Source of the DNA: Acidobacteriota bacterium
Lineage (GTDB): Bacteria; Acidobacteriota; Thermoanaerobaculia; Gp7-AA8
DNA length: 64,000 nucleotides
NCBI GenBank assembly: GCA_003223645.1
Contig: QHVT01000006.1
Span: 124,001 to 188,000 of the forward strand
Direction of reading: 5' to 3'
The notes under the pieces are model-generated. The model was not told the DNA's origin, searched no databases, and was given only the letters and a program-made list of their open reading frames with translations. Position numbers and translations under genes: made by a program. Each line of letters starts with the position of its first letter. The stretch's first letter is position 1. Shown one piece after another: positions 52,328 to 54,113 of the stretch.

Positions 52328-53425
52328 TCAATCCCCCGCCGCCCTCTCCCCCGGCTGCCGCGGCTTCCCGATGTCGGCATAGTCGCGCATGAACACCTTC
52401 AGCCCGTAGTCCGGCTGGTTGCGCACGAAGCCTTCGACGAGTTGGTTGTTGTAGTAGTCGACGAAGAAGTCGAACGGGTCGCGCGGGTCGGTGTCGACGA
52501 CTTGCATGTCGGCGCGGACGAAATACAGCTTGCCCATGCGCAGCGTGCCGCCCTCGTAGAACATCCAATTCTTTTCCTGCGGGTCGGGTGGGTCGAGGGC
52601 GGCGGCGTGGACGTTGCTGTCGAAGAGTTGCACGAGCTCGCCTTCGTGCAGTTCGATGTCGCGCAGTTGTCCCTGGATCACCGGCGGCGGGAGGATCGCG
52701 GTGGCGTTGATGAGCAAGTCGTTCTTCTCGACCTTCACTCCGTTCGGCAGTTTCTTGAGGATCTTGTCGAGCGAGATGCCGAAGGCTTTCATCAGCAGCT
52801 CGCCGTTGAGATTGCAGATCTTGATGTCGATCGGGTGGATGCGCATCCAGCCGTCGTCCGTCACCGACACGTCGGCCGTCATCTCGAACGGGATGTCGAG
52901 GATCTTGTGCATGATCCCGCGCTGCACGAGCCTCCCCTCGTGCACCTCGATGAACAGCTGTTTGAGCGGCGTGCCTTCGTAGTTGAAGACGTAGTGATTC
53001 AGAAGATCGGTGAGTGCGCGTCCGCTCACGCCGATGCGCGCCTTGAAGATCTTGACGATGAACGACTTCTTGTCGTCGAAGTTCAGCGGCTGGCCTTCGA
53101 CCTTGTCGAAGAATTCGCCGCGCAGCGAATGGATGTTGAGGACGATCGTGCGGTCGACGTGAAAGAGGACGTTGTGCATTTCCGCCTGCGTGTGCGCGGC
53201 GGGAAGGGCGTCCTTCGGCACATCGAAATGCGCGACGCCGATGGGCGGCGACGGCACCGGCTCCGCCCCCTGATCGCGCGCCAGTTTTCCGGGACAGCAG
53301 CACGCGAACAGAGTGAGCGCGACCACGACGCCCGTGATGAACGGGATCAGGACCACGCCGGTCCGCCGGGCGATTGCCTTCCAATGCACAGCCAACGAAC
53401 TGTGCGGAAGCAAGTGCTTCGCCAT
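52328..53425 (-). CDS. Large hypothetical membrane-anchored protein
   Basis: From ATG 53425 the product has 365 residues: one N-terminal helix (VVLIPFITGVVVALTLFACC) followed by a periplasmic beta-rich domain. Repeated amphipathic strands (FHVDRTIVLNIHSLRGEF, LFIEVHEGRLVQRG, IELHEGELVQLFD) look like AsmA-like or DUF748-like barrel-lipid-transport sheets, but I cannot assign a family firmly. It is divergent from the MerB-like gene with 16 bp between start codons. Confidence 0.75.
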   Translation of the reverse strand: MAKHLLPHSSLAVHWKAIARRTGVVLIPFITGVVVALTLFACCCPGKLARDQGAEPVPSPPIGVAHFDVPKDALPAAHTQAEMHNVLFHVDRTIVLNIHSLRGEFFDKVEGQPLNFDDKKSFIVKIFKARIGVSGRALTDLLNHYVFNYEGTPLKQLFIEVHEGRLVQRGIMHKILDIPFEMTADVSVTDDGWMRIHPIDIKICNLNGELLMKAFGISLDKILKKLPNGVKVEKNDLLINATAILPPPVIQGQLRDIELHEGELVQLFDSNVHAAALDPPDPQEKNWMFYEGGTLRMGKLYFVRADMQVVDTDPRDPFDFFVDYYNNQLVEGFVRNQPDYGLKVFMRDYADIGKPRQPGERAAGD

Positions 53426-53441
53426 GTGCGATAATCTGCCG

Positions 53442-54113
53442 GTGAACAACGAGGAAATCGACCGCCGCGTCCGCGCCGCCGTCTACGACGTCACGATGCG
53501 CGAGGGCTTCCCTCCGCTATCCACGCGCGTCGCGAACGAGCTGCAGATCGACGCGTCCGAGTCTCTCGCGTCGTTCCGCCGCCTCGCCGATGCGCGCATG
53601 CTCGTCGTGCAGCGCGACAGCGGCGAGATCCTGATGGCGAATCCGTTCTCGGCCGTTCCGACGCCGTTCGCCGTCAACGCGAATGGTCTCTCCTGCTACG
53701 GCAACTGCATCTGGGACGCCCTCGGCATCCCCGCGATGTTGAACTGCGACGCCGACGTCGACACGAGCTGCGCCGACTGCGGCACGTCCGCGCGCGTCCG
53801 CGTCCAGGACGGCCGCGTGATCGGCGAAGGGCTCATGCACTTCGCGATTCCCGCGCGCTCGTGGTGGAAAGACATCGTCTTCAACTGAAAGACGATGCTC
53901 TTCTTCCGGTCGGAAGAACACGTCGATCGATGGTGCGAGTCGTGGCAGATGCCGCGCGGCGAGATCATTTCGCTCGACAAAGGATGGGAGCTCGCGCGCA
54001 TCTGGTACGGCGAAGACCGCCGCGCACCGGATTGGCGCCGGCGCACGCTCGAGGAAACCGAAGCGGTGTTCGCGTCGCTCGGGTTCACCTCCGAGTTCTG
54101 GAACTTGCGCTGA
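53442..54113 (+). CDS. MerB-like organomercurial lyase with in-frame TGA, candidate selenoprotein
   Basis: From GTG 53442 the frame reads through a single TGA (53886-53888) to the stop at 54111-54113, 223 residues in all. The N-terminal helical domain is followed by the MerB catalytic motif C89-I-W-D92 (the family Cys96/Asp99 pair) and SCADCG. The TGA at codon 149 falls 60 residues after Cys89, where the family has its second catalytic cysteine (Cys159, 63 residues after Cys96). Reading resumes with KTMLFFRSEEHVDRW, the family's C-terminal motif. It is therefore either a Sec-containing protein or a point-mutated pseudogene. Without read-through the two pieces are 53442-53888 and 53895-54113. 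Confidence 0.75.
53889..53918 (+). promoter_or_regulatory. Candidate bacterial SECIS hairpin
   Basis: The seven-base stem TTCTTCC/GGAAGAA (53901-53907 with 53912-53918) closes a GGTC loop that begins 19 nt after the TGA. Placement and a G at the loop start agree with the bacterial SECIS model, and the loop matches E. coli fdhF. The stem could also arise by chance from the encoded FFRSEE motif. Confidence 0.45.

Follow-up and report, generated by a model that had tools for sequence, protein, structure and literature searches.

The window, i.e. the whole 64,000-nt stretch of Acidobacteriota contig QHVT01000006.1 analysed here, carries a MerB-like reading frame on its forward strand (Table 1). 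Two start codons are equally possible, GTG at 53442 (223 aa) and ATG at 53424 (229 aa), and the frame contains exactly one internal stop, a TGA, before its terminal TGA at 54111-54113. The neighbours identified by Pfam are a subtilase, AraC-type regulators, a glyoxalase-family protein and UvrB. When the internal TGA is read through, the product matches the Pfam MerB family (PF03243) with 103.5 bits (E value 1e-29) over the complete profile (1-126 of 126), well above the gathering cut-off of 27 bits, and the part before the TGA gives 59 bits by itself over profile positions 1-79. The preliminary description, made from the letters alone, had noticed an open frame with MerB homology on either side of the TGA, and this is borne out. 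Because 74 downstream open codons occur at 38% of arbitrary positions in the 64-kb window (GC 62.6%), the open frame behind the TGA is weak evidence alone. What lifts it above chance is the two-sided homology together with an identical column in dozens of genomes and a conserved hairpin.

Table 1. Features of the MerB-like locus in the window, and related genes with two in-frame TGA codons in other genomes
Feature	Position or locus	Strand	Basis and remarks
Predicted MerB-like selenoprotein gene	53424..54113	+	Full-length Pfam MerB match on read-through; AlphaFold model
Codons of the C-x-x-D catalytic pair	53706..53717	+	Cys89 (TGC, 53706-53708) and Asp92 (GAC, 53715-53717), counted from GTG, equivalent to R831b Cys96 and Asp99; profile alignment to 1s6l/3f0o/5c17
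In-frame TGA, proposed Sec codon	53886..53888	+	Residue 149 from GTG, equivalent to R831b Cys159; TGA column in 39 aligned sequences
Bacterial SECIS-like hairpin UUCUUCC-GGUC-GGAAGAA	53901..53918	+	Loop 53908-53911, about 19 nt past the TGA; folding, covariation
Chloroflexota double-TGA genes	L108, L109, L110 (genome G545); L151 (G764); L111 (G419); L112 (G481)		
Actinomycetota double-TGA genes	L186 (G1019); L187 (G1029)		

The active site of MerB can be traced through the whole product. When the family profile was aligned with the sequences of solved MerB structures, the C-x-x-D pair matched R831b MerB residues Cys96 and Asp99, and the TGA matched Cys159. This agrees with the preliminary description, which had named the pair and had placed the TGA at the second catalytic cysteine by counting. 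The columns of the pair (C95 and D98 in the numbering of alignment A2) are nearly invariant. An AlphaFold model built from 35 homologues, in which Sec was replaced by Cys so that no selenium geometry is implied, reached a mean pLDDT of 95.9, and its best PDB matches were MerB2 (5c17, VIA-align Z 17.8) and MerB (3f2f, Z 14.7). A MerB fold is thus predicted with confidence, C, D and U taking the places of residues 96, 99 and 159.

The codon in the Cys159 column is TGA in 39 aligned sequences, which come from Acidobacteriota, Chloroflexota, Actinomycetota, Pseudomonadota and Eremiobacterota, and the TGA sequences of alignment A2 are 33-63% identical to the window protein. Among 396 sampled Acidobacteriota genomes, 19 contained a family match, and exactly one TGA lay inside the match in 14 of these 19. 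A scan of GTDB genomes added records labelled Acidobacteria, Chloroflexi, Eremiobacterota, Proteobacteria and Nocardioides; because most of these records are metagenome-assembled, single phylum placements may be wrong. Further genes of the TGA form came from searches of Chloroflexota and Actinomycetota. The frame downstream of the TGA and the C-terminal motif are intact in TGA homologues of several phyla. Meanwhile, the nearest TGA-free relatives, L183/L184 of Actinomycetota and L078/L079/L081 of Chloroflexota, have Cys at the TGA column. The two comparisons that the preliminary description had named as informative, with other Acidobacteriota and with cysteine homologues, thus both came out in favour of the Sec reading, and the former extends to four further phyla.

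In the maximum-likelihood tree, 43 single-Sec rows, one Trp row and six Cys rows form one supported group (98/96). Within it lies a weaker subgroup (80/71) of 42 single-Sec rows and the Trp row, and the Cys rows fall beside or outside this subgroup. Since phyla are mixed inside the single-Sec group, the tree suggests horizontal transfer of the gene. A scan of IMG/VR with the family profile found no viral relative. The Trp row (L030, genome G167) has TGG at the Sec codon although selA is present in that genome; hence the Sec residue can be lost, and Trp there means that the catalytic residue has gone or that the function has changed.

Two loci with broken frames, L057 of Rubrobacteraceae and a plasmid copy of R. 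radiotolerans, were left out of the counts. The latter (L106, plasmid 1 of Rubrobacter radiotolerans RSPS-4, 103195-103464) is the RefSeq 'organomercurial lyase' WP_041338655.1, a 90-codon stub that ends exactly at the family TGA, and the frame is shifted behind this codon; it is either a decayed copy or a sequencing error. The isolate assembly of Nocardioides sp. zg-1230 holds the gene twice (L059 on scaffold 5 and L060 on scaffold 3), by duplication or as an assembly artefact.

Downstream of the TGA, the consensus over the 39 aligned sequences is a hairpin CUCUUCC-GGUC-GGAAGAG with its loop at 19 nt. Its Arg and Ser codons hardly vary in their wobble positions between phyla, and 94.4% of the pair cells are kept over 38 distinct sequences. 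Two-sided changes were found at four of the seven pairs, including C-G to G-C in L027 and L056, and C-G to U-A at the loop-closing pair, where the protein also changes from Arg to Trp. The covariation score exceeded those of all 500 shuffles and of all slid controls. Two sequences (L028 and L029) have a six-base loop with G in second place. According to the 2026 prokaryotic selenoprotein inventory, bacterial SECIS elements have a loop of 3-9 nt with G in the first two positions and a stem of 4-16 bp, and lie 16-37 nt after the UGA (PMC13188914). The GGUC loop at 19 nt on a 7-bp stem falls within these bounds.

The hairpin becomes evident only from comparison across genomes, as folding the window region as a single sequence gave no greater stability than its shuffled versions had (z 0.69). 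When synonymous codons were shuffled, the mean stem was 2.2 bp versus 6.5 bp observed, with single sequences rarely significant (median p 0.15). No Rfam family scored above chance near the TGA, a result of little weight for so short an element. The GGUC hairpin was absent from the codon-matched region of the cysteine relatives.

The host genome carries the complete set of selenocysteine genes that the preliminary description had pointed to: selA (473.7 bits), selB (375 bits), selD and selC, the tRNA-Sec with anticodon UCA. An in-frame TGA is likewise present in the selD of the host. selA occurs in each of the 14 Acidobacteriota genomes that carry the TGA form, versus 252 of the 396 sampled; by simple arithmetic the chance of this is 0.636^14, or about 0.002, a figure to be read with the relatedness of the genomes in mind, as they are not independent. 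Among the 13 other carriers, selB scored over the cut-off in ten and below it in three. Diverged direct repeats with units like 'gatctttcgagatgagcgtct' lie just downstream of selC (L009, about 1740-2080, on host contig C12), and another run of short repeats adjoins selD (L018, about 2490-2700).

Eight MerB-like genes of Chloroflexota and Actinomycetota (Table 1) have TGA at both catalytic cysteines, giving a predicted active site of U-x-x-D/E plus a second Sec. The four representatives scanned scored 62-72 bits with Pfam MerB. Each TGA is followed by a SECIS-like hairpin. The second is the same as that of the window gene; the first is mostly GCUGGC-CGUGN-GCUGGC at 17 nt, and in G481 it is CUUGCUGCU-GGUC-AGCAGCGAG at 20 nt. 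selA was present in all six genomes with such genes. The copies of G419 and G481 are the most diverged of the eight, with long branches and unsure placement in the tree. One gene of this branch (L152, G505) has TGC (Cys) at the first position and Sec at the second, and its first hairpin has a loop lacking the GU dinucleotide. In its accessible text, the 2026 inventory lists no protein of the MerB fold in which Sec replaces both catalytic cysteines (PMC13188914).

From these comparisons of sequences, the window gene is almost certainly a real selenoprotein gene. The explanation that very probably accounts for the whole is a MerB-fold selenoprotein in which the UGA would be decoded as Sec by the host SelA, SelB, tRNA-Sec and SelD, with the hairpin 19 nt downstream directing the insertion; that Sec actually enters the protein is what we infer. 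In MerB, Cys96 and Cys159 bind the metal and Asp99 aids in transferring the proton, after which thiols take away the Hg(II) (PMC4525700). Because the equivalents of Cys96 and Asp99 are kept and Sec would stand in place of Cys159, MerB-type chemistry with one selenolate ligand is the most likely route. The Cys/Sec pair would capture R-Hg+, the Asp would pass a proton to the carbon so that R-H leaves, and Hg(II) would be handed on to cellular thiols. The selenolate may speed the capture of R-Hg+.

Judged from the residues kept, organomercurials are the probable physiological substrate, though with appreciable doubt. A less probable but serious alternative is that the MerB-fold selenoprotein acts on another organometal(loid) or on a small thiol- or selenol-reactive compound, as proposed for the SAO system. 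The surroundings of the gene speak for such a substrate: the Pfam scan of its neighbours in the window showed no mer genes and no neighbour family was conserved over 46 loci, by which linkage to a mer operon is ruled out, and no MerA scored over the NCBI cut-off of 454.45 bits in the host genome (about 97% complete). The literature, too, describes the related SaoL broadly as a general 'organometallic lyase'. Against this, the protein retains the catalytic Cys and Asp of MerB as well as its second chalcogen position, and genomes with MerB but without MerA are known (PMC8261052). The best match to the MerA model in the host (L142, C43:58495-59850) reached 376.5 bits; it is a flavin disulfide reductase that resembles MerA but lacks the C-terminal Cys pair. 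A broader proposal is that these genes represent a selenium-dependent branch of the MerB fold in environmental bacteria, so far unrecognised and scattered by horizontal transfer, diselenolate sites included, whose enzymes act outside mer operons on organometal(loid)s in addition to methylmercury or instead of it; this is speculative and on present evidence unlikely.

As the simpler reading, the preliminary description had put forward a TGC-to-TGA mutation. On this view the TGA would be of recent origin, or an error of sequencing, and the gene would be a pseudogene or make a truncated protein. Decayed copies do exist, as the R. radiotolerans homologue annotated up to its TGA illustrates. However, the TGA recurs at this codon in independent genomes of several phyla, where the frame behind it and the C-terminal motif are intact, and a conserved hairpin after the codon is not expected from a point mutation. 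Hence a point mutation does not explain the locus, and we regard this reading as highly improbable. Still weaker is decoding of the UGA as another amino acid (e.g. Trp, as in code 4) or plain read-through without selenium, to which the single TGG homologue lends some colour: TGA is a real stop in the window for the MerB-like gene itself, uvrB and an AraC-type gene, which rules out an alternative genetic code, homologues terminate at the same place with TAA or TAG, the other TGA-free relatives have Cys and not Trp at the column, and the genome has SelB and a tRNA-Sec with anticodon UCA alongside the conserved SECIS-like hairpin.

Mercury binds selenium far more tightly than sulfur. A Sec in the metal-binding pair of a mercury lyase thus raises the question of whether the selenolate would speed capture or trap the product. 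The family itself supplies a test set for it, as versions of the active site with Cys, one Sec or two Sec occur in nature, and the Nocardioides sp. zg-1230 isolate might serve as an experimental host. The TGA brings gene callers to a halt, as in R. radiotolerans. A large census of MerB used Cys159 as one signature and lists no MerB in Acidobacteria (PMC8261052); at this signature position the window gene has TGA, the proposed Sec codon. Since gene callers end such genes early and a census with Cys159 as one signature lists none in Acidobacteria, versus 14 of 396 genomes with the TGA form here, the organomercury-degrading potential of soils may be under-counted.

Compared with MerB (R831b; 3F0P/3F2F; PF03243) and MerB2 (5C17), the window protein has the same predicted fold (Z 14.7 to 17.8) and belongs to the same Pfam family, and it shares with MerB the equivalents of Cys96 and Asp99 and the second catalytic position. 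It differs in that the second catalytic residue is TGA-encoded, in a C-terminal extension and in having no mer operon. Its scores with the MerB equivalog models NF009710 and NF033555 are 47.5 and 37.3 bits, versus cut-offs of 193 and 200, and no NCBIfam model claims the family.

The other known system to be compared is SaoL (NF040728), a MerB-like organometallic lyase that belongs to the SAO system (Haft and Gwadz 2023, cited through PMC13188914). It is the one MerB-like entry in the accessible part of the 2026 inventory, with one Sec in a CU motif (PMC13188914), so that, like the window protein, it is MerB-like and predicted to contain Sec. L088 aligns with the SaoL profile up to position 157 of 159, where its own Cys pair is about to begin, and from such profile coordinates the Sec of SaoL probably occupies the same second catalytic position. 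Hence Sec in a MerB-like active site is not a new idea. The preliminary description knew of no established Sec-containing organomercurial lyase; this must be qualified, as SaoL was already known as a predicted Sec-containing MerB-like protein (PMC13188914), and it stands insofar as the window protein is not SaoL. The window protein is the longer of the two and scores 42.1 bits with the SaoL model versus a cut-off of 140. Its motif is NU; in the rows of alignment A1, Sec follows Asn or Thr, in rare cases Ala, and in no row Cys. Membership in SaoL is ruled out by score and motif, as compared through the NCBIfam model and the accessible part of the review. SaoL lies in the SAO operon with ABC-transporter selenoproteins; for the window gene, the neighbours identified by Pfam are those given above. 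A search of Chloroflexota found no sequence over the SaoL cut-off. The window family, its SECIS and the double-Sec cousins appear to be undescribed in the literature that was searched. The cysteine relatives L183/L184 and L078/L079/L081 differ from the window gene in having neither the TGA nor a GGUC hairpin after the codon; they are homologous to its product over the full length, C-terminal extension included, and carry Cys at the column in question.
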